DNA of 35,887 bases from Frankiales bacterium (lineage in GTDB: Bacteria > Actinomycetota > Actinomycetes > Mycobacteriales > Jatrophihabitantaceae): positions 1-35,887 of the forward strand of contig JAOPUZ010000055.1 in the NCBI GenBank assembly GCA_025966315.1. The letters are read 5' to 3'. Positions within the stretch are counted from its first letter, which is position 1. Each line of letters starts with the position of its first letter. Under the pieces are notes generated by a model. That model ran no database searches. It was not told where the DNA came from and saw only the letters and a program-made list of their open reading frames with translations. Position numbers and translations under genes: made by a program. Positions 3,501 to 25,458 of the stretch are shown here, one piece after another.

Positions 3501-3505
3501 GATTG

Positions 3506-5677: not shown

Positions 5678-7338
5678 CAGTGGAGTCCTTCTGCGAGCGG
5701 ACCCAGCGCCAGCGCTGGGAAGTAGGTGAGCGCGACCACGATCAACGTGACGCTCGTGAGTAGTCCGACGAAGAGCAACCGGTGGGTAGGCAGGGTGCCC
5801 TCAGAGGCCGGGACTGGTTTCTGGCGAGCCAACGAGCCGGCCAGGCCCAACACGAACACCATGGGCAGGAACCGCCCGATCAACATCGCCAGGCCCAGCG
5901 CGGTGTTGTACCAAACGGTGTTCACCGAGATACCGGCGAACGCGCTGCCATTGTTGTTGGCCGCGGAGGTGAATGCGTAGAGCACCTCGGACAATCCGTG
6001 GGCACCGCTGTTGAGCATGCTGGCCCGTTCGCCCGGCAAGGCCATTGCGGCCGCCGTACCGACGAGTGCAACCAGCGGCGTGGTCAGGATGTACAGGGAG
6101 GCAAACTTCATCTCCCTCGCGGCGAGTTTTTTCCCGAGATATTCCGGTGTTCGACCGACCATGAGACCGGCGATGAATACGGACAGGACGGCCAGCACGA
6201 GCATTCCGTACAAACCCGAGCCGGTTCCGCCGGGAGCGATCTCGCCCAGCATCATGTTCAGCAGCAATGTGGCGCCGCCCAAGCTGGTGTAGCTGTCATG
6301 GAAGCTGTCCACCGCTCCCGTCGAGGTCAACGTGGTGCCGGTCGCGAAGACGGCGGAATCAGGGACCCCAAACCTGGTATCGGTCCCTTCGGCCGACGAT
6401 CCGACCGCGGTTGGCACCGTCCCGTGATGCACCGTCTGGGCCGCGACGTTCAAGCCCAGGCTCAGGACGAACAGCAGTGCCATGACCGAGACGATGGCGT
6501 AGCCCTGCCGCTTGTCGCCGACGATCTTGCCGAAGGTGCGCGGTAGCGAAAAGGAGATTGCCAGCAACAGGAAGATCTGCAGCCAGTTGGTCCAGGTGGT
6601 CGGGTTCTCGAACGGGTGGGCCGAGTTGACGTTGTAGAACCCACCGCCGTTGGTTCCCAGTTCCTTGATGACCTCCTGGCTGGCGACTGGGCCGCCGGTC
6701 AAGGTCTGGGTGCCGCCGGTCAGGGTTTGCAGGTCGGCGTAGTGGTGAAGGTTCTGCACCATTCCCGCGCCGACGAAGACGATCGCGAACAAGATCGAGA
6801 TCGGCAGCAATACGCGCAGCGAAATTCTGGTGAGGTCGACCCAGAAGTTTCCCAATCGATTGGTGTTCGAGCGGGCGAAGCCGCGTACCAACGCAATGGC
6901 CACCGCAATACCGACGGCCGCCGACAGGAAGTTCTGGACGGCGAGGCCGGCCATTTGAACGACATAGCCGAGCGCATTCTCACCCGAATAGCTTTGCCAG
7001 TTCGTGTTGGTGACAAAGCTTGTTGCGGTGTTCCAGGCTTGGTCGGCACTCATTCCCGGCACGTCGTACGGCGGCCAGAAGTGGTGTTGGACGCGCATGA
7101 AGATGTACAAGAACACGAGTGAGACGCCGCTGAAGGCGAGGACGGCCCGAAGGTAACGGCCCCAGCTTTGTTCGGCGTCTGGATCCACGCCGCCGGTGCG
7201 GTACAGAACTCGCTCGACCCTGGCGTGGCGGGTGCTCTCCAGGGTGTGTGCCATGTAATCGCCCAGCGGCTTGTGCACGAGGGCCAATGCCGCGATCAGG
7301 GTGGCGATGAAGACTATGACCGCCCAGCTTGAACTCAT
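5677..7338 (-). CDS. kdpA: KdpA, K+-translocating channel-like subunit
   Basis: The 553-aa integral membrane subunit forms the K+-selective path of KdpFABC. About ten hydrophobic segments are visible. Filter-like loops include [20 protein letters not shown] near residue 230, the loop holding [19 protein letters not shown] near residue 360, and [13 protein letters not shown] near residue 460. Length equals the usual KdpA. The ATG at 7338 overlaps the kdpF stop by one base and has GGAG eight bases upstream, so the operon is tightly coupled. Confidence 0.96.
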
Positions 7339-12357: not shown

Positions 12358-13719
12358 TCAATCCGTCCGGCACGGCGAGGCCGGTGCCGTCGACGAGCTG
12401 GCCGCCAGCCAATCCGGCCAGTCGCGGGGATCGGGCGAGGGCACCAACCCGTGCTCGCTCGCCGAATACGTCCACTCCGGTCCTTCGACCCGTAGCCGTC
12501 CGACGGCGTCGACCAGCCGATCGATGTCAGCGCCGCAACTGCCGAGTCCGATGCTGGCGCGAACCGCACCATCATTGGCGTCGAAGCGGGCAAGCAGCGG
12601 ATGAGCGCAGAATCGGCCGTCTCGAACACCGATGCCATGCTCGGCCGACAGGTACTGCGCGACCGCTTCAGCCGAGTAGCCGGGCACCGTGAAGCTCACC
12701 ACCCCGATGCGCTCGGTCTCATCGGGCCAGAGCCGCAAGATGTCCGCGCCAGCCCGACGGAGTCCCGTCTCGAGCTGGCGGAGCAGGCACGATTCGTGGG
12801 TCGGGATTGCGTCATCCGGGAGGGCCTGGATGGCTCGACAGGCTGCGGCGATCGCGATTGCCCCGATGACATTGGGTGTTCCCGCCTCGTGCCGGGCCGG
12901 AGCGCTCGTCCAGGACGTCGCGGTGATCGTCACGTCGCGCACTGCGCCGCCGCCGGCCAGGTACGGCGGGGCGGCGTCCAACCAGTCACGTCGCCCGATC
13001 AGGACCCCGGCACCGAAGGGCGCGTAGAGCTTGTGGCCGGAGAACGCGAGATAGTCGATGCCCAGCGCGCCGATGTCGACGCGCCGATGGGGCACGAGTT
13101 GTGCTCCGTCCACTGCGATCCGCGCTCCATGGCGGTGCGCCAGCTCGGCCAATTCCGGCAGCGGCAGCAGCTCGCCGGTCACGTTCGACGCTCCGGTCAC
13201 CGCCAGCAGCTGCGCCGGTTCGCGAGCCAACTCACTTTCCAGCGCGGCAATCGTCCCGGCCAGAGTATCGCGGGCGACGACTACCCGGCCGTCTCGGGCC
13301 TGCCACGGAAGGAGATTCGCATGATGTTCGATGTCCAGGTAGACCACCGGGCCGGGCGCGGCCGTCGCCAGCAGGTTGAGCGCATCAGTGGTGTTCCGGG
13401 TGAAGATCACCACGTCGGACGACCGGGCGCCGACGAATGCGGCCACGGTTGACCGCGCGGCTTCGTATGCGGCGGTGCAGACCTGGGAGTTGTAACCGGC
13501 ACCGCGGTGCACGCTCGAATACAGCGGCAACAGCGCCGTCACCTCGTCGGCCACGGACTGCAGGGCGGGAGCGCTGGCAGCGTAGTCGAGGTTCGTGTAC
13601 CGGACGTCGCTGCCTTGGACGAGGGGAACGCACTGGCCGGCGCCGACCAAGGCGGCGATCGGCAGGCTGCCCGCGGCCCGACTTGCCGCGGTGGCTTCGT
13701 GACCGATAGTTGTTGTCAT
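12358..13719 (-). CDS. cysteine-desulfurase-like class V aminotransferase under a SAM-IV riboswitch
   Basis: 453-aa fold-type I PLP enzyme. Visible are NLDYAASAP, HRGAGYNSQV, the cofactor loop FTRNTTDALNLLA, DIEHHANLLPW, AVDGAQLVPHR, the PLP lysine in SGHKLYAPFGAGVL (Lys230), EAGTPNVIGAIA and the C-terminal RDGRFCAHPLL, whose Cys371 sits where SufS/CsdA enzymes carry the persulfide cysteine. It could release sulfur from cysteine or a related thiol amino acid. About 60 C-terminal residues (from RVEGPEWTYSASEHG) extend beyond the usual fold. No suf, isc or thiolation partner is adjacent. The riboswitch upstream puts it in the sulfur regulon rather than general Fe-S assembly. GGAG lies 11 bases before ATG 13719. 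Confidence 0.85.
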   Translation of the reverse strand: MTTTIGHEATAASRAAGSLPIAALVGAGQCVPLVQGSDVRYTNLDYAASAPALQSVADEVTALLPLYSSVHRGAGYNSQVCTAAYEAARSTVAAFVGARSSDVVIFTRNTTDALNLLATAAPGPVVYLDIEHHANLLPWQARDGRVVVARDTLAGTIAALESELAREPAQLLAVTGASNVTGELLPLPELAELAHRHGARIAVDGAQLVPHRRVDIGALGIDYLAFSGHKLYAPFGAGVLIGRRDWLDAAPPYLAGGGAVRDVTITATSWTSAPARHEAGTPNVIGAIAIAAACRAIQALPDDAIPTHESCLLRQLETGLRRAGADILRLWPDETERIGVVSFTVPGYSAEAVAQYLSAEHGIGVRDGRFCAHPLLARFDANDGAVRASIGLGSCGADIDRLVDAVGRLRVEGPEWTYSASEHGLVPSPDPRDWPDWLAASSSTAPASPCRTD

Positions 13720-13735
13720 TGCTTATGAAACTCCA

Positions 13736-13766
13736 GATCCCTGACGGGGATCCGCAATCGGATCCC
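13736..13766 (-). promoter_or_regulatory. mutually exclusive stems: expression platform of the first SAM-IV switch
   Basis: The segment 13747-13753 can pair upstream (in mRNA sense) as GGGATCCG/CGGATCCC, a perfect 8-bp stem with a 4-nt loop (13747-13766), or downstream as GATCCC/GGGATC (13736-13752). The second stem ends immediately before the GGAG ribosome site. A choice between the stems could control ribosome access. The first stem abuts the riboswitch 3' end. Confidence 0.6.
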
Positions 13767-13873
13767 GCGCTTGCCTGCTCCGGTTGGAGCGGGCCGTGTC
13801 GTCACCCGGGGCACCCCACCGCGGAGGAGGGTTGCCGGCCAGCAAGCCGGGGCTTTGCGCTGGCGCTCGTGAC
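13766..13873 (-). ncRNA. SAM-IV-type riboswitch, desulfurase leader
   Basis: Read on the minus strand, the element has GTCACGAGCGCCAGC, then AAGCCCCGGCTTGCTGG, CCGGCAACCCTCC, GCGGTGGGGTGCCCC and GGGTGACGAC. TGTC (13871-13874) and GACA (13797-13800) close P1. A hairpin CCCGCTCC/GGAGCAGG and the conserved AAGCGCGG follow, as in the other two copies in this window. This order is that of the actinobacterial SAM-IV class, which lowers expression when S-adenosylmethionine is abundant. It ends 47 bases upstream of the desulfurase start. Confidence 0.88.
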
Positions 13874-13882
13874 AGCGGAACG

Positions 13883-14101: not shown

Positions 14102-15100
14102 TTAGAAGCTTGGCGTCGGATTGACCTCGGACTTCGGGATACCCGAACTCGTCAGCACACCCCACTTGTTGAGGATCTTGGTGTAGTCGCCATTGGCGAT
14201 CAGTTCGTTCACGGCATCGCTGATCGCCTTGGCGATCGGTGATCCCTTGGTCGTGACGAAACCGACGACGGTCGAGCTGATCTGTCCGAGGAACTTGGTG
14301 TTCGGAACGTGGGTGGCGTCGTACTGCAGGCTCAGCGTCGGCCCGAAGTAGAGGTCGACCTTGCCGTTGGCCAGCCCCAAGAAGATCGGCGCGCTGTCGG
14401 CGAAGTACTGGACGCTGAAGTCCTTCTTACCGGCCGCGGCGCACTTGCCCGCGGCGCCGGTGAGGATCTGCTGGAAGGTCGAACCCGGGCTGGTGGCCAC
14501 GGTCAGCCCGCAGACGTCGCTGATGTCGCTGACCTTGTCGAGTTTGACGCTCGCCGCCCCCAGGAACGCCTGACCGTCGGTCAGGTAGGAAGCGAAGTCG
14601 ACCACCTCTTCACGTGCCTTGGTCACCCCGAAGTTGTCTTGCCCGACGGCGTACTTGCCGTTCTGCACGCCCGGGATGATGGTGGCGAAGGTACCGTTCT
14701 GCACGTCCCAGGTGACGCCGAGCACCTTGGCGATCGCGTTGCGCAGGTCGACGTCGAGGCCGATGTCCTTGCCGTCGACCTGGCCGCCGTGGGGCAATCC
14801 GGAGACTCCTGGAGTCAGCGTCGTCCCGAGGGTGATCGATCCGCTGCTCTGGACGGCGGCCGGTAGCTCGGCCTTCAGCTTCGGGTCGGCCTGGATCGCG
14901 CTCACGACGTCCAGCGTCGGTATCGCGGATGACGCGGTGCTGGGCGAGCCTGAACCACCGCCCGGCACGTTGGCGCCAGTGGTGGGGGTCGCGGACGAAC
15001 TGCACGCGGCGAGCAGGACGACTGCTGCGATCGCGGCGACGAATCCGGTGGTGCGTCTCATGCGGCGGGCGGGATGGCCAGCGTGGCCGTCGGTGGTCAC
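14102..15100 (-). CDS. ABC solute-binding lipoprotein, amino-acid type (family 3)
   Basis: 332 aa. The signal peptide ends in lipobox LLAAC (Cys at about 33), then a Ser/Thr/Gly linker. The family 3 core shows GLDVDLRNAIAKVLGV, the loop TFATIIPGVQNGKYAVG, FGVTKAREEVVDFASYL, DVCGLTVATSPGSTFQQ with a matching GKCAAAGK, and a C-terminal DAVNELIANGDYTKILNKWGV. The start is GTG 15100 with AAAGGA six bases upstream. It is last in the permease-ATPase-lipoprotein unit. Its location under a SAM-IV leader suggests a sulfur-containing amino acid or organosulfur ligand; this is inference, as the pocket cannot be read by eye. Confidence 0.88.
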   Translation of the reverse strand: MTTDGHAGHPARRMRRTTGFVAAIAAVVLLAACSSSATPTTGANVPGGGSGSPSTASSAIPTLDVVSAIQADPKLKAELPAAVQSSGSITLGTTLTPGVSGLPHGGQVDGKDIGLDVDLRNAIAKVLGVTWDVQNGTFATIIPGVQNGKYAVGQDNFGVTKAREEVVDFASYLTDGQAFLGAASVKLDKVSDISDVCGLTVATSPGSTFQQILTGAAGKCAAAGKKDFSVQYFADSAPIFLGLANGKVDLYFGPTLSLQYDATHVPNTKFLGQISSTVVGFVTTKGSPIAKAISDAVNELIANGDYTKILNKWGVLTSSGIPKSEVNPTPSF

Positions 15101-15178: not shown

Positions 15179-16006
15179 TCAAAGAACGGCGGAGAGGAAC
15201 GCGCGGGCACGTTCATGGCGTGGATTGGTCAGTACTTCAGCCGGCGCGCCGGATTCGACGATTCGGCCGCCGTCGAGGAACACCACGGTGTCCGCGACCT
15301 CGCGGGCGAAGCCGATTTCGTGGGTGACCACGATCATCGTCATGCCGTCCAAGGCCAGGTCGCGCATGACCGCCAGCACCTCGCCGACCAGCTCAGGGTC
15401 GAGGGCGCTGGTGGGTTCGTCGAACAGCAGGAGCTGCGGTTCCATCGCCAGGGCGCGGGCGATGGCCACCCGCTGCTGCTGGCCGCCGGACAGCTGCCGG
15501 GGATAGGACCGCTCGCGCCCGCCCAGGCCAACCCGCTCGAGCAAGGCCAGCGCGCGGGCGGTGGCGTCCTTCTTGGATTCCCGGCGAACCGCCACTGGAG
15601 CTTCGATGATGTTTTCCAGGACGGTCAGATGCGGGAACAGATTGAATTGCTGGAACACCATGCCGACTTTGGTGCGCTGCTTGGTAATAGCCTTTGCGTG
15701 CAGCTCATGCAGCTTGTTGTGATCGTGCCGGTAGCCGACGATCTCGCCGGCCAGCTCGACGAAGCCGCCGTCCGGTCGTTCCAGATGATTGATGCAGCGC
15801 AGCAGCGTGGACTTTCCTGAGCCGGACGGGCCGAGCAGGACCGTCACCTCACCGTGGCCGATGTCCAGATCGACGCCGTCGAGTACGACGTTAGTGCCGA
15901 AGCTCTTGCGCAGCCCACGGATCCGCACCAACGGAGCCGCGACCTGGCCCGCCGGAACCGGCTCACTCACCGGAATCGGCTCACTCACCGGAATCGGCTC
16001 GCTCAT
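15179..16006 (-). CDS. ABC transporter ATPase, polar amino-acid type
   Basis: 275 aa. Walker [10 protein letters not shown] at 59-67, Q-loop [17 protein letters not shown], signature LSGGQQQR, Walker [15 protein letters not shown] and H-loop [14 protein letters not shown] are all intact, and the sequence is closest to GlnQ/HisP-type ATPases. The first 18 residues are a Pro-rich triplicate of [12 protein letters not shown] coded by an 18-bp tandem repeat, outside the nucleotide-binding fold. The start codon overlaps the permease stop (ATGA) and lies in the loop of a perfect hairpin at 15996-16013. Confidence 0.95.
15952..16005 (-). repeat. 18-bp tandem repeat x3 inside the ATPase gene 5' end
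   Basis: Copies at 15952-15969, 15970-15987 and 15988-16005 differ by one or two bases and encode the repeated hexapeptide. The unit keeps frame, so copy-number change would alter only the length of the N-terminal tail. Confidence 0.9.
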
Positions 16007-16013
16007 GCGAGCC
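15996..16013 (-). promoter_or_regulatory. hairpin enclosing the permease stop / ATPase start
   Basis: Perfect 7-bp stem GGCTCGC/GCGAGCC whose 4-nt loop (16003-16006) is exactly the ATGA stop-start overlap. It could make ATPase translation depend on ribosomes arriving from the permease gene. Confidence 0.45.
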
Positions 16014-17034
16014 CGGCCAGGTCGTGTCGGGTCCGTCCGAATAACGGCAGATTCCCTCGGGTGAGTTCCCAGAAGCCCGGCGAGCTATGGCGATTGCTGC
16101 CACGCGCGTAGTGCCGTTCCACGTAATACTGGCCGATCGACAGCAGCGTGGTGAGAATGATGTACCAGATCGTCGCGACCAGCAGCAGCGGCATGATCAG
16201 GTAGTTCTGGTTGTAGATCAGTTGCACCGAATACAGCAGATCGGTCACGGCGATCACGCTGACAATGGAGGTCGCCTTGAGCATCCCGATGAGCAGGTTG
16301 CCCGAGGCGGGAATGATCGCCGGCATCGCCTGCGGTAGCACGATCCGGCGAAAGATCCGTCCGCGGCTGAGGCCGAGCGCTTGAGCGGCCTCGGTCTGGC
16401 CGTGCTCGACGGCGAGGATGCCGCCGCGCACGATCTCGGCCGAGAACGCCGCCACATCGAGGGTCAGCCCGACGAAGGCCGCGAGCAGGCCGGTGAACAG
16501 GTGCGCGGTCTTCACGGTCACGAACTCGTGGCCGAACGGGATGCCCAGTGACAGGGTGGGGTACAGCGAAGCCAACTCGAACCAGAACAGCAGTTGCACC
16601 AACGGCGGTACCGATCGGATCAACCACACGTAGCCGAAACTCAGCGTGCGCAGGATCGGGTTGGTCGACAGGCGCATTGCCGCGAGCCCGATACCCAGCA
16701 GATATCCGCACACCATGACGGCCGCGGTCAGCCAGAGGGTGAGCAGTAACCCGTGCATGATCGAGCCGCGGGTGAAGTAATCGCCCACCACGTCCCACTG
16801 AAAGCGTTTGTTCGTCAGCAATGTGTGGATGAGCATCGCGATCAGGACCAAGACAGCGGCGGCACAGATCCACTGCCCGGGCCGGCGCAGCGGGACCAAC
16901 TTCGCCGCGAGCAGTTCGGCGTCCGAGGCACGCTGGTCCAGGGCCGCGGTGCTGATATTGCTGCCGGGCGGCTCGACCAATACCTGGGTGTCCGGTGGTT
17001 CGGTGGCTGGTTCGGCAGCCTGGGAGCGAGTCAT
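16003..17034 (-). CDS. ABC transporter permease, polar amino-acid type (HisM/GlnP family)
   Basis: 343 aa from ATG 17034, chosen because ACGAGGA lies just upstream; an in-frame ATG at 17085 would add 17 residues but has no ribosome site. About 50 cytoplasmic residues precede a first helix ([17 protein letters not shown]). A typical three-to-five-helix domain follows, with the ATPase-coupling EAA loop [20 protein letters not shown] and the final INxxYL-like stretch [20 protein letters not shown]. It is first in the importer unit; the next gene overlaps by four bases. The leader of about 550 bases upstream contains a leader peptide and a SAM-IV riboswitch. Confidence 0.92.
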
Positions 17035-17236
17035 GAATCCTCGTGTCCGTTCTCGAGAATCGTCATCGGGTGTGCGAGATGTCATTCAATGCGCAGCGCG
17101 TCAGCTCGCGGCCCGCCATGTCGGGCGGCTAGGTCGGTAGCGCGACCGCCTCAGATACCGGTGCAGCAGCGGCACAAGCTCGGTCGTGGCCTCGAAACCG
17201 CGGTTACCCCGAAATAGCCATTACGCGGAACGGTGG

Positions 17237-17392
17237 TTACGCGAACGGAGCGGGCGCGAAGTGGACGGCAGCTGACGGGCGAAGTTGGCTCGGACACAGC
17301 GCGCTGCTGACGCGCAACAAATCCACGTGACGCCGCAGGACCCGCAATGAGGTGCAGTGAGTGCGCGAACTATGGTCGTAGTGCGCTTTCAT
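17237..17392 (-). CDS. putative cysteine-sensing leader peptide of the ABC importer
   Basis: 51-aa ORF starting at ATG 17392 with GAGG nine bases upstream. Residues 20-34 read RRHVDLLRVSSALCP, twelve of fifteen identical to the leader peptide at 19053-19139. Short RRHxDL...LC peptides upstream of sulfur genes are, as I recall, annotated as putative leader peptides in many actinobacteria. Cys33 (TGT) is the likely ribosome-stalling codon; Cys13 is another. It is longer than the usual 25-30 residues and ends about 200 bases before the permease. It lies 48 bases downstream of the SAM-IV element. Confidence 0.65.
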   Translation of the reverse strand: MKAHYDHSSRTHCTSLRVLRRHVDLLRVSSALCPSQLRPSAAVHFAPAPFA

Positions 17393-17416
17393 GTCTGTCC
17401 GCCTCGGCAGTGTCTC

Positions 17417-17440
17417 GGCCCGCTGACTACCATGCGGGCC
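17417..17440 (-). promoter_or_regulatory. stem downstream of the second SAM-IV switch
   Basis: Perfect 7-bp stem GGCCCGC/GCGGGCC with a 10-nt loop, immediately after the riboswitch and before the leader peptide start. It may be part of the expression platform or a terminator lacking a U-run. Confidence 0.4.
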
Positions 17441-17547
17441 TCGCGCTTACACCGACGATTGCCGGTGTCTGGTCGTCACCTGGAGCACCCCACCGCGCGG
17501 AGGGTTGCCGGTCAGCAAGCCAGGGCTTGACGCTGACGCTCATAACC
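17440..17547 (-). ncRNA. SAM-IV-type riboswitch, ABC importer leader
   Basis: On the minus strand: GGTTATGAGCGTCAGC, AAGCCCTGGCTTGCTGA, CCGGCAACCCTCC, GCGGTGGGGTGCTCC and AGGTGACGACC, closed by GGTT/GACC, then hairpin ACACCG/CGGTGT and AAGCGCGAGG. It is nearly identical in its core to the element at 18896-19006. It lies about 400 bases upstream of the permease start and 40 bases after the ssuD stop, and should reduce importer expression when SAM is high. Confidence 0.9.
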
Positions 17548-17554
17548 GCCCTCC

Positions 17555-17588
17555 ACGTTATCCGCTCCCGAGCTCAGAGACAATGTCT
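17555..17588 (-). promoter_or_regulatory. promoter and palindrome for the second SAM-IV switch
   Basis: Minus-strand TTGTCT (17578-17583) and TAACGT (17555-17560) are 17 bases apart, with the expected start at the first base of the riboswitch. The perfect 11-bp palindrome AGACAATGTCT (17578-17588) covers the -35 box and overlaps the ssuD stop codon (17587-17589). Confidence 0.5.
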
Positions 17589-18771
17589 AGTGCTGTGATA
17601 GGGATTGCGTTTTCGTCGGCACCGTTTTCGTCGGCACCGTTTTCGTCGGCACAAGTGGTCGCACTTCCTCGGCGAAGCGGTACGCCTCTTCCAGATGTGG
17701 ATATCCGGACAGGATGAACTCGTCGATGCCGACCGCCCGATAATCAGCAATGCGTTCGGCAACCTGCTCGTGGCTACCGACCAGGGCCGTCCCGGCGCCG
17801 CCGCGAACCAGACCGATGCCGGCCCAGAGGTTGGGCGCGACCACTAGTCGCTCGCGTGATCCACCGTGCAGGTCGAGCATTCGGCTCTGCCCGACCGACT
17901 CCAGCGCCCGAAGCCGACGCTGGCCGGCGGCGATCTCGGCGTCGTCCAAGCCGGCAATCAGGGCGTCGGCGTCTCGCCAGGCCTGCTCGGCCGTGTCCCG
18001 GCTGATCACGTGGATGCGCAGCCCGAAACGCACCGAGCGGCCCTGCTGCAACGCTCGATCACGTACCTGGGACAGCTTCTCGGCGACCAGGCCGGGCGGC
18101 TCGCCCCAGGTCAAATAGGTGTCGGCGTGCCGCGCGGCCAGCTCGAAAGCGGGATCGGACGACCCGCCCAGGTACACCCGCGGTATCGGCTCGGGTGGGT
18201 GACGCAGCAGTGAGTCGTCCAGCGTGAAGTGTTCACCCCTATGGCTGAACGAAGCTCCCGTCCAGGATTGGCGGACGACATCGAGGAACTCCTCGGCGCG
18301 GGCGTAACGCGCATCGTGGGAGAGCGGGTCGCCGAAGGCGCGTTGCTCGGCGTCGCTGCTGCCGGCCACCACGTTGAGCAGCAACCGCCCGCCCGACAAC
18401 CGTTGGAAGGTCGCTGACATGTGCGCGGCGAGCGCCGGCTCGATGAGTCCGGGCCGGAATGCCACCAGGAACTTCAGTCGGGTCGTCTGGGCCATCAGGG
18501 CCGAGGTCACCACCCACGCGTCCTCGCAATGGGCACCGGTCGGCGTTAGCACCGCTTCGTAGCCGAGCTGGTCCGCCGCCCGCGCGAGCTGGCCGAGATA
18601 CTCCAGCGTCGCCGGACGCTCCGTCAGACCGGGGCGTGGTGTCGAGGTCTGGGCGGAGCTTGGTGTCGCGGTCGGCGTGGCGCCGGCACCGATACCAAGG
18701 CCATGGACGGCGCCACCCAACTGGCGGCCGTCACCGCCGGTGGGCAAGAACCAATGGAACACCGAATTCAC
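17587..18771 (-). CDS. ssuD: SsuD-type FMNH2-dependent alkanesulfonate monooxygenase
   Basis: 394 aa from GTG 18771. The N-terminus VFHWFLPTGGDGRQLGG is that of SsuD, followed by GYEAVLTPTGAHCEDAWVV, FLVAFRPGLIEPALAAHM, RLLLNVVAGSSDAEQRAFGD and GGSSDPAFELAARHADTYLTWGEPP. SsuD cleaves alkanesulfonates with O2 and FMNH2 to sulfite and an aldehyde. No ssuABC-type importer or ssuE is adjacent, but a flavin reductase is encoded at 24059 and an ABC importer begins 550 bases downstream. The C-terminus carries three copies of VPTKT. The gene is divergent from the other monooxygenases and has no riboswitch on its own strand. Confidence 0.9.
   Translation of the reverse strand: MNSVFHWFLPTGGDGRQLGGAVHGLGIGAGATPTATPSSAQTSTPRPGLTERPATLEYLGQLARAADQLGYEAVLTPTGAHCEDAWVVTSALMAQTTRLKFLVAFRPGLIEPALAAHMSATFQRLSGGRLLLNVVAGSSDAEQRAFGDPLSHDARYARAEEFLDVVRQSWTGASFSHRGEHFTLDDSLLRHPPEPIPRVYLGGSSDPAFELAARHADTYLTWGEPPGLVAEKLSQVRDRALQQGRSVRFGLRIHVISRDTAEQAWRDADALIAGLDDAEIAAGQRRLRALESVGQSRMLDLHGGSRERLVVAPNLWAGIGLVRGGAGTALVGSHEQVAERIADYRAVGIDEFILSGYPHLEEAYRFAEEVRPLVPTKTVPTKTVPTKTQSLSQH
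17610..17654 (-). repeat. 15-bp tandem repeat x3 at the ssuD 3' end
   Basis: TTTTCGTCGGCACCG on the plus strand is repeated at 17610-17624 and 17625-17639, with a third copy altered in its last bases (17640-17654). It encodes VPTKT three times in the protein tail. Confidence 0.85.
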
Positions 18772-18854
18772 CAGGCACCACTCTCGGTTGTCAGTTCTGG
18801 GTGTAGCGGAATGGTAGGCGAACGTATTCCGTTGCTATGTCCATCACATCTATA

Positions 18855-18888
18855 GGGATTGCATGCATCCCATGAGTCGCGTTAGGGT
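18855..18888 (+). promoter_or_regulatory. promoter and inverted repeat for the monooxygenase operon
   Basis: TTGCAT (18859-18864) and TAGGGT (18883-18888) are 18 bases apart and place the start at about the first riboswitch base. The 17-bp inverted repeat GGGATTGCATGCATCCC (18855-18871) covers the -35 box and lies between this operon and the divergent ssuD. It could be an operator for both. Confidence 0.5.
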
Positions 18889-18895
18889 CGGATCT

Positions 18896-19006
18896 GGTTA
18901 TGAGTGTCAGCGTCAAGCCCTGGCTTGCTGACCGGCAACCCTCCTCCATCGGCGGGGTGCTCCAGGTGACGACCAGGCGGATCGCTTCCCCGGTTCGCAA
19001 GCGTGG
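18896..19006 (+). ncRNA. SAM-IV-type riboswitch, monooxygenase operon leader
   Basis: GGTTATGAGTGTCAGC, AAGCCCTGGCTTGCTGA, CCGGCAACCCTCC, GGCGGGGTGCTCC and AGGTGACGACC (ending 18974) form the core, closed by GGTT/GACC. Then come the hairpin CGCTT/AAGCG (18983-19003) and GCAAGCGTGG. This matches the order of the actinobacterial SAM-IV class. A GGGC/GCCC stem follows at 19014-19027. The leader peptide starts 46 bases later and the first operon gene at 19212. Confidence 0.92.
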
Positions 19007-19052
19007 ACGTCGGCGGGCTGCGGCCCGACTGGCAGGAATGAGGTGGCGAGAA

Positions 19053-19139
19053 ATGACGCTCCGCTACGTGGCGTTCTCCCGCCGGCATATCGATTTGCAG
19101 CGCGTCTCCGGCGCGCTGTGTCCCGGCCGTCGCCGATAG
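19053..19139 (+). CDS. putative cysteine-sensing leader peptide of the monooxygenase operon
   Basis: 28-aa ORF, ATG 19053 with GAGG nine bases upstream, stop TAG 19137-19139. Residues 10-24 are RRHIDLQRVSGALCP, followed by the basic tail GRRR. The single Cys23 codon is TGT at 19119-19121. A GTCGC/GCGAC hairpin (19129-19143) begins eight bases after that codon and includes the stop codon, so a ribosome stalled at Cys23 would disturb it. An in-frame extension to 18900 would have to be read from the riboswitch itself and is rejected. The type matches small actinobacterial sulfur leader peptides. Confidence 0.75.
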   Translation: MTLRYVAFSRRHIDLQRVSGALCPGRRR

Positions 19140-19211
19140 CGACTCGCCGCCTGCGCCCGGCCATCGCGTCCGGACCCGCACTGTTCCCCCACTCAGAGAG
19201 TTGATCTCGAC

Positions 19212-20417
19212 ATGCCCGTACCCACTCCACCCCTTCATCTTGCCGTCGCGCTGGACGGCGCCGGCTGGCATCCCGCCGCCTGGCGCGAGCCGACCGCGCG
19301 GCCGACCGAGCTTCTGCACGCGCGCTACTGGGCCGACCTGGCCGCCGAGGCCGAACGCGGCTTGCTCGACTTCATCACGCTCGAGGACTCCCTCGGCTTG
19401 CAGGCCGCGCCGCTAACCGAATCCGACCAGCGCACCGACCAGGTCCGAGGTCGGCTCGACGCTGTCCTGGTCGCGGCCCGGATCGCGCCACTCACCCGGC
19501 ATCTCGGTCTGATTCCGACCGCCATCGTCACCCACACAGAGCCATTCCACCTATCCAAAGCCATCGCCACCCTGGACTACGTCAGCAGCGGGCGAGCCGG
19601 CCTGCAGGTCAAGGTCTCGGCCCGAGCGGACGAGGCCGCCCTGTTCGGGCGTCGCACCATTGCGCCGATCAAGCTCGCCGAACTACAGCAACCAGCGGTG
19701 CAGGTGCTGATCGAGGAACTGTTCTCCGAAGCCACCGACTACGTCGAGGTGCTCCGTCGACTCTGGGACAGCTGGGAGGACGACGCCGAGATCCGCGATT
19801 TCGCACCGGGTCGTTTCGTCGACCGCAACAAGCTGCATTACATCGACTTCGAAGGATCCCGGTTCAGCGTCAAAGGGCCGTCGATAACTCCACGTCCACC
19901 GCAGGGCCAGCCGATCGTGAGTGCGCTGGCCCATCAGAGCCGTCCGTTCGAACTGGTGGCCACCTCAGCCGACGTCGGGTACGTCACTCCGCGCGACGCC
20001 GCACACGCCGCCGAGATCGTGAACGAAATCCGGACGCGGCAGGACGCCGCCGGTCGCTCGGAAGAAGCCGTGCACGTTTTCGGTGACCTCGTCGTGTTTC
20101 TCGACGAAATCGAAGCTGCGGCCGTGGCGCGCAAAAAACGTCTGGACGAGACCGCGGGGACCGAGTACACCAGCGATGCGCTCATCTTCACCGGTTCGCC
20201 GTCGCAGCTGGCCGATCTGTTGCTGGACTGGCAGCGGGCCGGCCTGACCGGATTCCGGCTGCGCCCCGGCGCGCTGCCCGACGATCTGGAGTCGATCACG
20301 CGTCTGCTGGTACCGGAGTTACAGCGTCGCGGCGCGTTCCGTACGGAGTACGAAGCTGCCACCCTGCGCGGAAACCTCGGGCTGCCCCGACCCACCAACC
20401 GCTATGCCGCCGCCTGA
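19212..20417 (+). CDS. LLM-class flavin-dependent monooxygenase, NtaA/SnaA-like (1)
   Basis: 401-aa luciferase-like TIM-barrel protein. PLHLAVALDGAGWHPAAW, YWADLAAEAERGLLDFITLE, HLGLIPTAIVTHTEPFHLSK, IATLDYVSSGRAGLQVKVSA and a C-terminal LVPELQRRGAFRTEYEAATL place it in the long-chain NtaA/SnaA/DszA branch. A reduced-flavin oxygenation of an organosulfur or organonitrogen compound is expected; the substrate is unknown. It is first in the riboswitch-controlled operon. The ribosome site is weak, so initiation may depend on the leader structure. Confidence 0.85.
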   Translation: MPVPTPPLHLAVALDGAGWHPAAWREPTARPTELLHARYWADLAAEAERGLLDFITLEDSLGLQAAPLTESDQRTDQVRGRLDAVLVAARIAPLTRHLGLIPTAIVTHTEPFHLSKAIATLDYVSSGRAGLQVKVSARADEAALFGRRTIAPIKLAELQQPAVQVLIEELFSEATDYVEVLRRLWDSWEDDAEIRDFAPGRFVDRNKLHYIDFEGSRFSVKGPSITPRPPQGQPIVSALAHQSRPFELVATSADVGYVTPRDAAHAAEIVNEIRTRQDAAGRSEEAVHVFGDLVVFLDEIEAAAVARKKRLDETAGTEYTSDALIFTGSPSQLADLLLDWQRAGLTGFRLRPGALPDDLESITRLLVPELQRRGAFRTEYEAATLRGNLGLPRPTNRYAAA

Positions 20418-20438: not shown

Positions 20439-21818
20439 ATGAGCAAGCCCATCAAGCAGATCCACCTCGCCGCGCATTTCCCGGGCGTCAACAACACCAC
20501 CGTGTGGAGCGATCCGGCCGCTGGCAGCCATATCGAATTCAGTTCTTTCGCGCACCTGGCTCAGACCGCAGAGCGGGCGAAGTTCGACTTCCTGTTTCTG
20601 GCCGAAGGCCTGAGATTGCGCGAACAGAGTGGAAAGATCTACGACCTCGACGTGGTCGGTCGCCCGGACACCTTCACGGTGCTGGCGGCGCTGGCCGCGG
20701 TAACCGATCGGCTCGGCCTGGCCGGCACGATCAATTCCACCTTCAACGAGCCGTACGAGGTGGCCCGACAGTTCGCCAGCCTGGATCACCTGTCCACCGG
20801 GCGAGCGGCGTGGAACGTCGTCACGTCGTGGGATGCGTACACCGGCGAGAACTTCCGTCGCGGCGGATACCTCGCTCAGGACGACCGCTATTCCCGCGCT
20901 GAACAGTTCATGCGTACGACCTGGGAGCTGTTCGACTCGTGGCACGAGGGTGACATCGTCGCCGACAAGCAGAGCGGTCAGTTCTTGAGCCATCCCGACG
21001 TCGGCGCGTTCTCGCACCACGATGCGCACTTCGACATCGCCGGGCAGTTCAGCGTGCCGCGCAGCCCGCAGGGTCGTCCGGTGATCTTCCAGGCCGGTGA
21101 CTCCGAACAGGGACGCGAGTTCGCGGCCGCCACCGCCGACGCGATCTTCAGCCGGCACTCGACGTTCGACGACGGACAGGCATTTTATGCCGACGTGAAA
21201 AGGCGATTGACCCGCTACGGTCGCCGGTCCGAGCAGCTGTTGATCTTGCCGGCCGCGACGTTCACGCTCGGTGACACCGACGCCGACGCCGCGGAACTGG
21301 CGCACGAGGTGCGTCTGCAGCAGGTCAGTGGACAGACCGCGATCAATTTCCTCGAGCAGCTGTGGAACCGGGACCTGTCGGCCTACGACCCGGACGGCCC
21401 CTTGCCGGACATCGATCCGGAACTGGGCGAGCCCAAGATCGCACGGGGCACGGCCCGGGCCCGGCAGTTCACCGACCGGCTGGCCACCGCGGCCGAGTGG
21501 CGCGCCATTGCCGAGTCCAAGAAACTGTCCATCCGCGAGCTGATGATCGAGCTGACCGGACGGCAGTCGTTCGTCGGCTCGGCCAGCACGATCGCCGAGC
21601 AGATCAATCGCTTCGTCCAAGCCGATGCCAGTGACGGCTTCATTCTCGTCCCGCATATCACCCCGGGCGGTCTGGACGGCTTCGCCGACCGCGTCGTCCC
21701 GCTCCTGCAGGAGCAGGGCGTTTTCCGGACCGAGTACGAAGGGTCGACCCTGCGTGATCATCTCGGGCTCAGCCGGCCGGAATCCGGGCGGGCCTCGGCC
21801 GAACGGGCGGCATCGTGA
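20439..21818 (+). CDS. LLM-class flavin-dependent monooxygenase, NtaA/DszA-like (2)
   Basis: 459 aa with the full features of the NtaA/SnaA/DszA group: IHLAAHFPGVNNTTVWSDP, KFDFLFLAEGLRLREQSG, TINSTFNEPYEVARQFASLD, TGRAAWNVVTSWDAYTGENF, RYSRAEQFMRTTWELFDSW, VPRSPQGRPVIFQAGDSEQG and HITPGGLDGFADRVVPLLQE. Members oxygenate sulfones, nitrilotriacetate and related compounds with FMNH2 from a separate reductase. AGCAAAGGA lies ten bases upstream of ATG 20439. The substrate is undetermined; operon context favours a sulfone, sulfonate or thioether. Confidence 0.9.
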   Translation: MSKPIKQIHLAAHFPGVNNTTVWSDPAAGSHIEFSSFAHLAQTAERAKFDFLFLAEGLRLREQSGKIYDLDVVGRPDTFTVLAALAAVTDRLGLAGTINSTFNEPYEVARQFASLDHLSTGRAAWNVVTSWDAYTGENFRRGGYLAQDDRYSRAEQFMRTTWELFDSWHEGDIVADKQSGQFLSHPDVGAFSHHDAHFDIAGQFSVPRSPQGRPVIFQAGDSEQGREFAAATADAIFSRHSTFDDGQAFYADVKRRLTRYGRRSEQLLILPAATFTLGDTDADAAELAHEVRLQQVSGQTAINFLEQLWNRDLSAYDPDGPLPDIDPELGEPKIARGTARARQFTDRLATAAEWRAIAESKKLSIRELMIELTGRQSFVGSASTIAEQINRFVQADASDGFILVPHITPGGLDGFADRVVPLLQEQGVFRTEYEGSTLRDHLGLSRPESGRASAERAAS

Positions 21819-22918
21819 AATTCCTGGCCATAACGCTGATCGTCCATGCGCCGGATCCGATTACCGGTATCCAGAAACCGACCTACGACCGGTTCCAGGA
21901 AGTGATCGACAATGCCATTTTGGCCGAGGACCTGGGCTTCGACGGCTTCGGTGTCGGGGAACGCCATGAGCGGCCGTTCATCTCCTCATCGCCGCCGGTG
22001 GTCTTGAGTCACATTGCCGCGCTCACCAAGACCATTCGGCTGTTCACGGCCGTCACGACGCTGAGCCTGCTCGACCCGGTCCGGGCCTATGAGGACTATG
22101 CGACGCTGGATCACGTGTCGGGCGGACGGCTGGAGTTGATCATCGGCAAGGGGAACGGCGCCGCGCAGCGGGAACTGTTCCACGTCACGCCCGAGGATCA
22201 GTGGGAACGCAACGCCGAAAGCTATGAACTGTTCCGCCAGATCTGGCGCAACGACAAGGTCAGTGCCACGCCGAAGTTCCGGCCGTCACTGCAGGACGCC
22301 GAGGTGTGGCCGCGCCCATTGCAGACGCCCATCCGGATCTGGCACGGCAGCGCCACCAGCCGCGAATCGGTCGACCTGGCCGCTCGTTACGGTGACCCGC
22401 TGTTCTCGGCCAACGTCACGAATCCCATCGAGCCGTACGCGGAATTGATCCGCTATTACCGCGAGCGCTGGGTCCATTACGGCAACGACCCGGCGTCGGC
22501 CGTGGTCGGCGCCGGTACCGCGGGGTATTACTCGACCCGCAACTCCCAGGACGCGATCGACACGTATCGACCCGTGTTCCAGGACCAGCTTGCCTTCCAG
22601 AAGCGGCTCGGACTGGAACCCGTTTTCCATACTCTCGAGGACTTCGTGGAACGCAGTTCTGCACTGATCGGCAGCCCACAACAGGTGATCGAGAAGGTGC
22701 ACCGCTACCACGAGCAGTTCGGCCACACGGTGTTGCACCTGCACGCCGATGCCGGTGGCCTGACCGACGATCAGCACCGCGAAGCGCTGGAGCTGTTCCA
22801 GTCCGACATCGCCCCGGAGCTGCGCCGCACGATCGCCGACCCACCATGGGGAGCCAGCCAGGGCAGCGGGACCGCGATTCGCGCGGCCGCAGGTGATTCC
22901 GTTCCCGCGACCGTCTGA
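21815..22918 (+). CDS. LLM-class flavin-dependent oxidoreductase (3)
   Basis: 367 aa from GTG 21815, overlapping the previous stop by four bases (GTGA). FLAITLIVHAPDP, DLGFDGFGVGERHERPFISS, KTIRLFTAVTTLSLLDPVRA, YATLDHVSGGRLELIIGKGN and IRIWHGSATSRESVDLAARY follow the alkanal monooxygenase-like fold. The C-terminal 40 residues are Ala/Pro-rich and beyond the barrel. It belongs to a different subfamily from its two upstream neighbours. Use of FMNH2 is more likely than F420, given the reductase in the operon. Confidence 0.85.
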   Translation: MKFLAITLIVHAPDPITGIQKPTYDRFQEVIDNAILAEDLGFDGFGVGERHERPFISSSPPVVLSHIAALTKTIRLFTAVTTLSLLDPVRAYEDYATLDHVSGGRLELIIGKGNGAAQRELFHVTPEDQWERNAESYELFRQIWRNDKVSATPKFRPSLQDAEVWPRPLQTPIRIWHGSATSRESVDLAARYGDPLFSANVTNPIEPYAELIRYYRERWVHYGNDPASAVVGAGTAGYYSTRNSQDAIDTYRPVFQDQLAFQKRLGLEPVFHTLEDFVERSSALIGSPQQVIEKVHRYHEQFGHTVLHLHADAGGLTDDQHREALELFQSDIAPELRRTIADPPWGASQGSGTAIRAAAGDSVPATV

Positions 22919-22931
22919 AGAGGACAAGCCG

Positions 22932-24062
22932 ATGACCAATACACCGTTGACCGTGCTGGACCTGGTGCCGATCTCGTCCGGATCCAACGCCACCGAAGCG
23001 TTGCGTAACAGCATCGATCTCGCTCAACAGGCCGAGCGTTTCGGCTACCGCCGATACTGGTTTGCCGAACACCATCTCAATCCAGGTGTTGCCGGTACCT
23101 CGCCGGCTGTGCTGCTGGCGCTGACCGCGGGCGCGACCTCGACCATCCGGCTCGGCGCGGGAGCTGTTCAGCTCGGGCACCGCACCGCCTTGTCCACCGT
23201 CGAGGAGTTCGGCTTGCTCGATGCGCTGCACCCGGGTCGCTTCGACCTGGGACTGGGCCGCTCCGGTGGGCGTCCGGCTGAGCCGGCCAAGGTTCCCGCG
23301 CTCGTGGGGGCACCAGCCGTTGCCGACGGTCGCACCGCGAACGGGCTGCGGATCCCAGCCAAGTTCAGCTTCCAGCACCTGCTCGGCTCCCCACGATTCG
23401 CCATGCAGAAAGCATTGCTCGCACAACCCAACGCCACGCCGCAGAATTACACCGAGCAGATCAACGACATCCTCGAGCTCATCGACGGGACGTACCGCTC
23501 AGCCGACGGGGTGGAGGCACACGTGATCCCAGGTGAGCACGCCGATCTGCAAGTGTGGATCCTGGGCAGCAGCGGCGGCGAAAGCGCGCAAGTTGCCGGT
23601 TCCAACGGCCTGCGGTTTGCCGCGAACTATCACGTCAGTCCCGCCACCGTGCTTGAAGCAGTCGAAGGCTACCGAGCGGCCTTCGTCCCGTCGCCCGGAC
23701 TCGCCAGACCACACGTCAGTGTGTCGGCCGACGTCGTTGTCGCCGAAGACGAAGCAGCGGCGCGTGAATTGGCTACCGGCTACGGCCTGTGGGTTCGTAG
23801 CATTCGCACCGCCGAAGGCGCCATCGAGTTCCCGACTCCGGCGCAGGCCCGAGCCCACGCCTGGACCGACGAGGACCGGGCGCTGGTCGAGGACCGCGTC
23901 GAGACGCAGTTCGTCGGTTCCGCGGCGCAGGTCGCGGACCACCTCGAACGGTTGCGGGACGCCACCGGAGCGGACGAGCTCATCGTCACCACCATCACCC
24001 ACGATCACGCCGACCGGATCCGTTCCTACGAACTCCTGGCCCAGGAGTGGGCCGCCCGATGA
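22932..24062 (+). CDS. LLM-class flavin-dependent oxidoreductase, MsnO8-like (4)
   Basis: 376 aa. ATG 22932 is used because AGAGGA lies seven bases upstream; a longer in-frame ORF from 22893 would overlap the previous gene. LTVLDLVPISSGSNATEALR, YRRYWFAEHHLNPGVAGTSP, STIRLGAGAVQLGHRTALS and LLDALHPGRFDLGLGRSGGR are typical of the MsnO8/YhbW luciferase-like branch. The end overlaps the flavin reductase start (ATGA), so the two products are made in step and may act as a pair. Confidence 0.87.
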   Translation: MTNTPLTVLDLVPISSGSNATEALRNSIDLAQQAERFGYRRYWFAEHHLNPGVAGTSPAVLLALTAGATSTIRLGAGAVQLGHRTALSTVEEFGLLDALHPGRFDLGLGRSGGRPAEPAKVPALVGAPAVADGRTANGLRIPAKFSFQHLLGSPRFAMQKALLAQPNATPQNYTEQINDILELIDGTYRSADGVEAHVIPGEHADLQVWILGSSGGESAQVAGSNGLRFAANYHVSPATVLEAVEGYRAAFVPSPGLARPHVSVSADVVVAEDEAAARELATGYGLWVRSIRTAEGAIEFPTPAQARAHAWTDEDRALVEDRVETQFVGSAAQVADHLERLRDATGADELIVTTITHDHADRIRSYELLAQEWAAR

Positions 24063-24559
24063 CGAACACCCTCGAGTCGGGCGAACTGCGGCGGGTACTC
24101 GGCGCGTTCCCCACCGGCGTCACGGCAATCGCCGCTCTCGGCGAGGACGGCCGGCCGGTTGGGTTGGCGGCCAGCTCGTTCACGTCCGTCTCGCTCGAGC
24201 CCCCTCTGGTGTCGGTGTGCGTCGCCCATACGTCCACCACTTGGCCGGCGTTGCGAGGCCGTGATCGCCTCGGGGTCAGCGTCCTGGGTGCCCATCAGGA
24301 ACGAGCTGGTCGCCAGTTGAGCGCCGCCGGTCAGGATCGATTCCTCGATCTGGCATGGCATACCGGCATCGACGGTGCGGTTCTGGTCACGGGCGCCAGC
24401 GCCTGGTTCGAATGCAGCATCGAACAACAGATCCGGGCCGGTGACCACGACATCATCTTGCTCCGTGTTCACGACGTGCAGGCCGACCACGACGTGGCGC
24501 CCTTGGTCTTTCATGCCAGCAAGTTCCGGCGGCTCGAACGAGAGGACTTCCCGGTCTGA
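24059..24559 (+). CDS. flavin reductase (HpaC/FMN reductase-like domain)
   Basis: 166 aa starting in the ATGA overlap at 24059. LRRVLGAFPTGVTAIAAL, GLAASSFTSVSLEPPLVSV, LGVSVLGAHQERAGRQLSA, a GHDII-like GDHDIILLRVHDVQA and PLVFHASKFRRLE are the standard split-barrel flavin reductase blocks. Such enzymes use NAD(P)H to supply free FMNH2 to two-component monooxygenases. As last gene of the operon it probably serves the four LLM enzymes and possibly SsuD. Confidence 0.93.
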   Translation: MTNTLESGELRRVLGAFPTGVTAIAALGEDGRPVGLAASSFTSVSLEPPLVSVCVAHTSTTWPALRGRDRLGVSVLGAHQERAGRQLSAAGQDRFLDLAWHTGIDGAVLVTGASAWFECSIEQQIRAGDHDIILLRVHDVQADHDVAPLVFHASKFRRLEREDFPV

Positions 24560-25407: not shown

Positions 25408-25458
25408 ATGACTATCGACGTTTACAGTCCATCTGCGCCGAACGACCGAAAGGCCAAC

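Follow-up and report, generated by a model that had tools for sequence, protein, structure and literature searches.

What does a short open reading frame do between a SAM-IV riboswitch and the operon that follows it? The question is raised by a contig from a Frankiales bacterium that was analysed over its full 35,887 nucleotides and is called the window here. A first-pass annotation described, in tandem, a SAM-IV aptamer, a 28-codon reading frame with a ribosome site and a single Cys codon of its own, and a monooxygenase operon, and read the arrangement as a gate with two inputs, SAM and cysteine. The tandem itself stands, as both elements score above the thresholds of their families (96.2 bits for the aptamer and 34.8 bits for the frame), GAGGT precedes the start codon, the only Cys codon is TGT, and four LLM-class monooxygenase genes and a flavin reductase gene follow from 19212. 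The pair was also to be sought in other actinobacterial genomes, where it recurs. The two-input gate is kept as the best reading, on the strength of the leader family and the UGU codon, with a probability of a little over one half (about 0.53). Two elements that might have carried it found no support: the stem after the Cys codon as a switch, and, in a folding model, the opening of the downstream ribosome site by a ribosome stalled at that codon.

At gathering score, the only RNA family that Rfam returned over the whole window is SAM-IV, in three copies (Table 1). The gathering score of RF00634 is 38, which copies 1 and 2 exceed with 96.2 and 97.3 bits, and by these scores both are SAM-IV aptamers with predicted SAM binding. 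SAM-IV aptamers form a pseudoknot between the P3 loop and the 3' tail, and the two segments are complementary in all three copies, with differing letters, as read by eye only. Copy 2 heads a second SAM-IV and leader pair (17237-17547, minus strand), absent from the first-pass annotation, which lies before an amino-acid or cystine-type ABC transporter. Copy 3, likewise missing from that annotation, serves as a comparison; the start of a cysteine desulfurase-like gene lies 42 nt downstream of it, with no leader between. The family names of the genes point to organosulfur uptake and use as the role of the region. The whole source genome holds three SAM-IVs and five leader matches (four over the cut-off), two of which are paired. 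All three SAM-IVs sit on this one contig, which is the window, and SAM-IV is absent from five of five sampled genomes of the same genus; horizontal transfer and a stray contig are possible readings of this, and the G+C content of the window resembles that of three other stretches of the same genome.

Table 1. Features of the window, with strand and basis of assignment; the last row gives positions within Streptomyces loci.
Feature	Position	Strand	Basis
SAM-IV aptamer copy 1	18896..19009	+	RF00634 96.2 bits, full length 1-116
Hairpin adjoining the aptamer, ahead of the ribosome site of the leader	19009..19033	+	local fold
Shine-Dalgarno-like GAGGT of leader 1	19040..19044	+	sequence
Leader ORF 1, 28 codons, MTLRYVAFSRRHIDLQRVSGALCPGRRR (stop)	19053..19139	+	NF042934 34.8 bits, cut-off 27
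Hairpin in leader 1, ending immediately before the Cys codon	19098..19118	+	fold -14.4 kcal/mol
Cys codon TGT of leader 1	19119..19121	+	TGT in 51/52 relatives with Cys there
Stem GTCGC-CGATA-GCGAC of the first-pass annotation, probably not functional	19129..19143	+	chance level, without support from relatives
C-rich, G-poor stretch after the stop of leader 1, possible Rho loading site	19140..19206	+	skew (C-G)/(C+G) 0.28
First gene, NtaA/DmoA-like LLM monooxygenase	19212..20417	+	TIGR03860 269.5 bits, just under cut-off 279.7
NtaA/DmoA family FMN monooxygenase	20439..21818	+	TIGR03860 412.6 bits, over cut-off
LLM-class monooxygenase	21815..22918	+	TIGR04036 246.6 bits, under cut-off
MsnO8 family LLM oxidoreductase	22893..24062 (listed ORF; the real start probably lies further in)	+	TIGR03558 305.3 bits, over cut-off
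Flavin reductase	24047..24559	+	several flavin reductase models, all under their cut-offs
Putative SulP transporter fused to carbonic anhydrase, 772-aa ORF	25408-27726	+	recognised by eye
Alkanesulfonate monooxygenase-like gene, divergent from copy 1	17587..18771	-	PRK00719 460.9 bits, under cut-off 510
SAM-IV aptamer copy 2	17438..17547	-	RF00634 97.3 bits
Leader ORF 2, 51 codons, ending ...LRRHVDLLRVSSALCPSQLRPSAAVHFAPAPFA (stop)	17237..17392	-	NF042934 28.5 bits in genome search, cut-off 27
Hairpin in leader 2, ahead of its motif Cys codon	17297..17317	-	fold -9.8 kcal/mol
Motif Cys codon TGT of leader 2	17294..17296	-	translation
ABC transporter permease, amino-acid type	16003..17085	-	BPD_transp_1 84.6 bits; best are ectoine/cystine permease models, under cut-off
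ABC transporter ATPase	15179..16006	-	best model L-cystine TcyN, under cut-off
ABC transporter solute-binding protein, family 3	14102..15100	-	SBP_bac_3 68.3 bits
SAM-IV copy 3, without leader (comparison)	13762..13874	-	RF00634 111 bits
Cysteine desulfurase-like gene under copy 3	12358..13719	-	Aminotran_5 286 bits; SufS model 290 bits, under cut-off
Putative kdpABC potassium-pump operon	2610-7338	-	recognised by eye
Cys-less leaders in Streptomyces	L158:1352, L159:998, L377:1422(-), L394:483(-), L396:445	as given	pattern search

NF042934 is the NCBIfam cis_reg_atten family named 'putative leader peptide', with a curated cut-off of 27 bits. By profile match both leaders of the window belong to this family, and their translation and regulation are putative. 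Leader 1 has no Pfam match and reaches 20.8 bits against the Ms4527A model NF042936, under its cut-off of 45; it has a single Cys and no Cys-rich end. Leader 2, whose translation contains ...RRHVDLLRVSSALC..., is an outlier that continues for 18 codons beyond the motif Cys.

In a sample of the phylum, SAM-IV was found in 26 of 296 genomes and leader matches in 19, with pairs in the genome of the window and in two others (G161 and G182). SAM-IV was present in at least 262 of the 394 genomes of a class sample, and the 150 genomes of an order sample gave SAM-IV in at least 93 and leader matches in at least 135. A set of 38 SAM-IV genomes was hand-picked for being rich in SAM-IV or for pairs already found, and is thus biased towards pairs; its 150 SAM-IVs and 133 leader matches formed 31 pairs (same strand, within 400 nt) in 22 genomes, where 0.02 were expected. 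A profile built from those 31 leaders (30 usable rows and one blank, threshold 8 bits) found a leader within the 450 nt after 59 of the 150 copies, 28 of them outside the training set, and found none in 150 reverse complements or in 150 shuffles. By family, a leader follows 37/78, 9/17, 8/29, 4/6, 1/18 and 0/2 of the SAM-IVs, and at least one such pair occurs in five of the six families and 28 of the 38 genomes. In 16 places, these 38 genomes carry a leader and a SAM-IV back to back on opposite strands within 600 nt. In a Nakamurella locus (L184, after SAM-IV G766:C26:104539-104649), two leader-like frames stand in series, a degenerate one first and then ...TRRHIDLLRTASACC (stop).

A less biased sample was provided by 91 evenly drawn Streptomyces genomes, 88 of which have SAM-IV. 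Nearly every one carries one high-scoring SAM-IV of more than 101 bits, and together they contain 36 lower-scoring copies; in one genome the top copy is among these. A leader follows 31 of these 36 (27 of 32 newly scanned, and all four from the 38-genome set). It follows none of five high-scoring Streptomyces copies, nor any of 95 copies in 94 top-scoring loci, drawn from other genera and the same genomes and partly overlapping the 150. Since it is found in the low-scoring but not the high-scoring copies, the leader marks a subset of SAM-IVs. The tandem of SAM-IV and leader is real, recurrent and conserved.

The start codon of the leader lies a median of 33 nt past the aptamer, with a range of 14-49, in 40 of 52 leaders (the other 12 have no SD-led start by the rule used and were left out of the count), and at 43 nt and 45 nt in leaders 1 and 2 of the window. 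In SAM-IVs without a leader, the first SD-led start comes at 39.5 nt (70 of 88 copies). The distances are similar, and the leader therefore begins where a regulated gene would otherwise start. The 32 nt after the aptamer, which hold a hairpin in the window, fold better than shuffled sequence both with a leader (62 copies) and without one (87), and none of 50 shuffle runs reached so low a value in either group. When the aptamer is locked in a folding model, the ribosome site of the leader becomes less accessible in 23 of 40 cases, which is no clear occlusion. For regulatory 5' UTRs of C. glutamicum found through Rfam, SAM-IV among those listed, the available text of PMC3890552 predicts partial sequestration of the ribosome site.

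The genes that follow were called by a codon-position G+C criterion together with Pfam, in place of longest-frame calls with misassigned frames. Among the 31 pairs, 19 first genes were compared with Pfam, as was one of those of the window (pair 18); three had no Pfam match (pairs 13, 20 and 30), pair 21 is without an assigned gene, and the remainder were read as ABC permease or LLM genes by their likeness to those of the window. In Streptomyces, the first genes of seven copies with a leader and one without were compared in the same way. The matches are to BPD_transp_1-type ABC permeases, LLM monooxygenases, two cysteine dioxygenases, NMT1-type and family-5 binding proteins, one class I/II aminotransferase and one DUF1684 protein, and GST-like proteins follow two leaders that lack Cys at the motif position. 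A class V aminotransferase follows the high-scoring Streptomyces copy L398 and copy 3 of the window. These targets of leaderless copies accord with the available portion of PMC8079986, in which SAM-IV stands before an S. lividans gene for a cysteine desulfurase.

What the leader might sense is suggested by its peptide and by one codon in it. An alignment of 54 leaders shows an invariant D and strong conservation of R, L, R, S, A, L and C (five of the 59, leader 2 of the window included, were dropped for having no motif or a short one). The chain reads RRHxDLxRVSSALC and ends beside the stop codon, with 0-5 codons between motif and stop in 48 of 52 leaders. The motif Cys, where present, is TGT in 51 leaders and TGC in one, against 6 TGT and 18 TGC in 27 of the following genes (Fisher p 1.8e-11), a count that supersedes an earlier one of 15 and 34, which included at least two wrong frames; the other Cys codons of the same frames are 14 TGT and 50 TGC. 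TGT is also used in 42 of 44 parsed leaders from the phylum and order loci (10 of 54 loci were unparsed) and in all 21 of 27 further Streptomyces leaders that have Cys there, six being without it. UGU is read by wobble decoding. Directly before this codon lies a hairpin, CAGCGCG-TCTCCGG-CGCGCTG in leader 1, where it is stronger than the stem named in the first-pass annotation and was overlooked there. The 21 nt before the Cys codon fold at -6.12 kcal/mol over 52 leaders (seven of the 59 were left out for having no Cys at the motif place), versus -4.13 kcal/mol after synonymous recoding and -5.34 kcal/mol after column-preserving codon shuffles, with 0 of 200 as low in either control; the recoding drew on a codon table with some wrong frames, of which the column-preserving control is independent. 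Selection seems to act both on the peptide and, in leaders that have it, on the exact Cys codon.

The elements that could read out a stalled ribosome were less forthcoming. The stem at 19129-19143, which the first-pass annotation placed after the Cys codon with the leader's stop codon in its loop and 3' arm, is present as described, but as an anti-terminator or switching element it was rejected, as it is at chance level and unsupported in relatives. Shuffling the 30 nt that follow the Cys codon yields a perfect stem of at least five pairs with a loop of 3-8 in 206 of 1000 cases, and shuffling 60 nt yields one in 544 of 1000. Over these 30 nt the 52 relatives fold scarcely better than shuffles, at a mean z of -0.32 with 1 of 30 shuffle runs as low; longer stretches improve a little on this, with -0.51 (60 nt) and -0.83 (90 nt) and 0 of 30 each. 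A trp-type attenuator with an intrinsic terminator was set aside in turn, since no terminator hairpin with a U-run lies between the leader and its gene; one terminator-like site was found on both strands of 17000-19300, where 0.9 were expected, at 17338-17323 inside leader 2. Relief of a sequestered gene ribosome site by stalling at Cys was also rejected, because in the folding model a ribosome at that codon lowered the opening energy of the site in 5 and raised it in 6 of 22 pairs (p 0.52). Termination-reinitiation is unlikely, as the SD-led start of the gene lies 51-363 nt beyond the stop codon of the leader in 22 pairs (values of 10, 13, 45 and 47 nt are not trusted, as they come from first-possible-start frames or a doubtful frame).

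What does follow the leader is a C-rich stretch. The 75 nt after the stop codon of 52 leaders have a C content of 0.455 and a G content of 0.281, and the first 15 nt are the most skewed (0.52 and 0.22). C exceeds 1.5 times G in 63% of cases; the share is 26% behind SAM-IVs that lack a leader and 8% in fragments of the genes that follow. No such stretch is present at leader 2 of the window (skew -0.02). All the statistics drawn from relatives, from the start distances to these base contents, count related sequences as independent and are too sharp for that reason. With no intrinsic terminators beyond chance and no gene ribosome site opened by stalling at Cys, Rho is the favoured readout, by analogy also with the riboswitch leaders of M. 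tuberculosis for which Rho is reported in the available text of PMC12810186.

The reading that we prefer, at about 0.53, is a composite sulfur sensor in which SAM gates the initiation of a cysteine-responsive attenuator, forming an AND gate with Rho as the probable readout. The SAM-IV aptamer would control initiation at the leader. At high SAM the leader would stay untranslated and the operon off, most likely through Rho acting on untranslated, C-rich RNA. At low SAM a ribosome would enter the leader and reach UGU with RRHxDLxRVSSAL in its exit tunnel. Given enough cysteinyl-tRNA it would pass the codon, terminate one to a few codons further on and leave, with the operon again off. When cysteine is short, the ribosome would stall at UGU, with the hairpin before the codon melted and the C-rich RNA at the stop covered, and transcription might then proceed into the transporter or monooxygenase genes. 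The operon would thus be on only when SAM and cysteine are both low. Seven features are observed: the conserved arrangement, the start-codon position, the UGU bias, the hairpin, the conserved peptide, the C-rich stretch and the gene context. The ligand response, the stalling, the part of Rho and the AND logic are what we infer. A near-invariant UGU in a known leader family fits the sensing of a cysteine codon, which makes the two-input gate the best reading. Against it stand the leaders without Cys at the motif position, leader 2 with its 18 further codons and no C-rich stretch, and a folding model that reveals neither clear occlusion by SAM nor opening by a stall at Cys.

The most serious competitor, which we nevertheless consider unlikely, is a nascent-chain arrest peptide, where the chain RRHxDLxRVSSA, perhaps aided by a small sulfur compound, would itself stall the ribosome close to the stop and the Cys codon would have no more than a modifying role. 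Conservation does extend far beyond that codon, with a pN/pS of 0.64 in the motif as opposed to 1.16 in the ten preceding codons and, for the two alternative frames, 1.22 and 1.51, although it is partly a matter of ascertainment, as leaders found by a protein profile are selected for a conserved peptide. The motif adjoins the stop, as such a peptide would have it. A Cys-less subtype, [ML]P..-LTRRLHIDLLRVSSAY (stop), follows SAM-IV in five Streptomyces loci; ten of its codons show synonymous changes only, and four show amino-acid changes, all within the first five codons, in a search whose pattern fixed most of the conserved residues. (Four of the five SAM-IVs at these loci have an unusually long match of 144-148 nt, and the next gene at L396 is GST-like.) In the folding model, with a ribosome placed at the leader stop, the ribosome site of the gene needs less opening energy in 9 of 22 pairs and more in no pair; a control placement gives 6 lower and 7 higher. 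The two pairs of the window show no change. This model result fits stalling at the stop better than at Cys, and under it the chain may arrest the ribosome at the stop, with translation of the gene as the readout. Against the arrest peptide, the near-invariance of UGU wherever Cys is present is something that pure arrest need not require.

Less probable again is that the frame is merely the first cistron of a riboswitch operon, whose translation keeps Rho off and whose peptide senses nothing. The leader start in the gene-start slot and the C-rich stretch after the leader would both be expected, and the Mbox uORF of M. tuberculosis, a peptide of unclear role in the available text of PMC12810186, offers a precedent. 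The distribution of the leader speaks against it. Homologues of the first gene of the window in named genomes, the best 80 of at least 552, were scanned for the leader over about 700 nt upstream: 20 LLM loci had the leader alone, one had SAM-IV alone (Ornithinimicrobium cavernae), 59 had neither, and none of these best 80 had both, so that no named example of the tandem came from this set. None of the 20 loci with a leader alone, 13 of them in Streptomyces, has SAM-IV within about 1.2 kb upstream, and the codon bias is similar in stand-alone leaders, with TGT as the motif Cys in 16 of 19 named LLM loci. As stand-alone leaders keep the codon bias, the leader has a role of its own.

That the elements occur singly could also mean that two devices in sequence act independently, in an additive or OR fashion, with SAM-IV on transcription or mRNA stability and the leader on the operon. 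Beyond the LLM loci and the 95 leaderless top-scoring SAM-IVs, 53 of 54 leader loci from the phylum and order searches (L038-L065 and L118-L143) lack SAM-IV within about 1.5 kb, and the folding model with a locked aptamer gives no coupling between the two. By this distribution, SAM-IV and the leader are independent modules that have been combined in some lineages. Independent action within the pair is nonetheless improbable, since the leader start sits where the regulated start lies in leaderless SAM-IVs and a switch could hardly fail to act on it. Short reading frames are common in GC-rich DNA and the stem at 19129-19143 is at chance level, but a chance frame in an accidental neighbourhood is refuted by the pair counts, by controls at zero, by recurrence across families and by an NF042934 score over the cut-off, and deserves next to no credence.

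How far would a composite sensor depart from what is known? Leader peptide systems include the Salmonella mgtA leader with its MgtL peptide, and TnaC. The former joins a leader peptide to a metal-sensing RNA and the latter has a stalled ribosome covering a Rho site, both of which resemble the proposal, although the signals and bacteria are others and the peptides are unrelated. For a TnaC-like arrest with a Rho readout, what is seen here is the conserved peptide and the C-rich stretch; stalling and a part for Rho would be predictions. As a SAM-IV (RF00634), the element is ordinary in its full-length match, its post-aptamer hairpin and a start codon about 40 nt on, and unlike others in that this start belongs to a leader peptide instead of a metabolic gene. 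Cysteine-responsive mycobacterial leader peptides (Canestrari 2020), as described in the available part of PMC9094748, and NF042934 share with these leaders the C-terminal RRHxDLxRVxSALC, a short frame before sulfur genes and a Cys near the stop. Here, in contrast, a riboswitch lies upstream, the leader is SD-led, and leader 1 has one Cys without a Cys run and matches the Ms4527A model only weakly (20.8 of 45 bits).

Closer in architecture are the riboswitches of M. tuberculosis. Its Mbox controls uORF2 (Rv1805A), a conserved uORF ahead of an operon, with Rho-dependent termination, and differs in that the switch is of the Mg2+ type and that, in the available text, the role of the peptide is unknown and no amino-acid sensing is proposed (PMC12810186). 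B12 riboswitches with the ppe2 and metE uORFs likewise put a riboswitch and a uORF on one leader in an actinobacterium (available text of PMC11260477), but at ppe2 a termination-reinitiation mechanism works over a stop/start overlap, unlike the 51 to 363 nt in the 22 pairs here. As in the Mbox and B12 cases, the uORF start lies within the expression platform, at 43 nt and 45 nt in the window and at a median of 33 in the population. Contiguous riboswitches also place two sensors on one mRNA, although both of them are riboswitches (PMC12452182, in part), and the available text of PMC9373788 describes a SAM-II riboswitch that works at a distance on a start codon. Because riboswitches that act on or through uORFs are published (PMC11260477 and PMC12810186, as far as their available text goes), the tandem is a variation on a known kind of control. 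The first-pass annotation knew of no described case, and for SAM-IV with a leader peptide we too found no report. The search covered open-licence literature only and is thus weak evidence of absence; the combination goes unmentioned with SAM-IV in the available portions of PMC8079986, PMC2965389, PMC3890552, PMC3774663, PMC3766115 and PMC12452182. The new element would be the two-input logic, which is proposed from sequence.

A wider form of the composite sensor is more tentative, and we would give it clearly less than even odds. The pairs may be widespread RNA-peptide logic devices of Actinomycetes, in which a riboswitch that reads SAM licenses translation of a conserved stalling peptide and a single UGU, at the end of an in-frame hairpin, reads cysteinyl-tRNA, as an AND gate for organosulfur scavenging, with a Cys-less branch (RRLHIDLLRVSSAY, stop) in which the second input has been switched to another signal. 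If the composite sensor is right, one mRNA leader would read both ends of sulfur metabolism, cysteine and SAM, without a protein regulator, and the aptamer and the ribosome would do the computing in series. It would be a natural and widely conserved riboswitch that acts by licensing an attenuator peptide. It would also suggest why the cis_reg_atten family keeps both its peptide and one exact codon, and what the peptide senses would become testable in Streptomyces.
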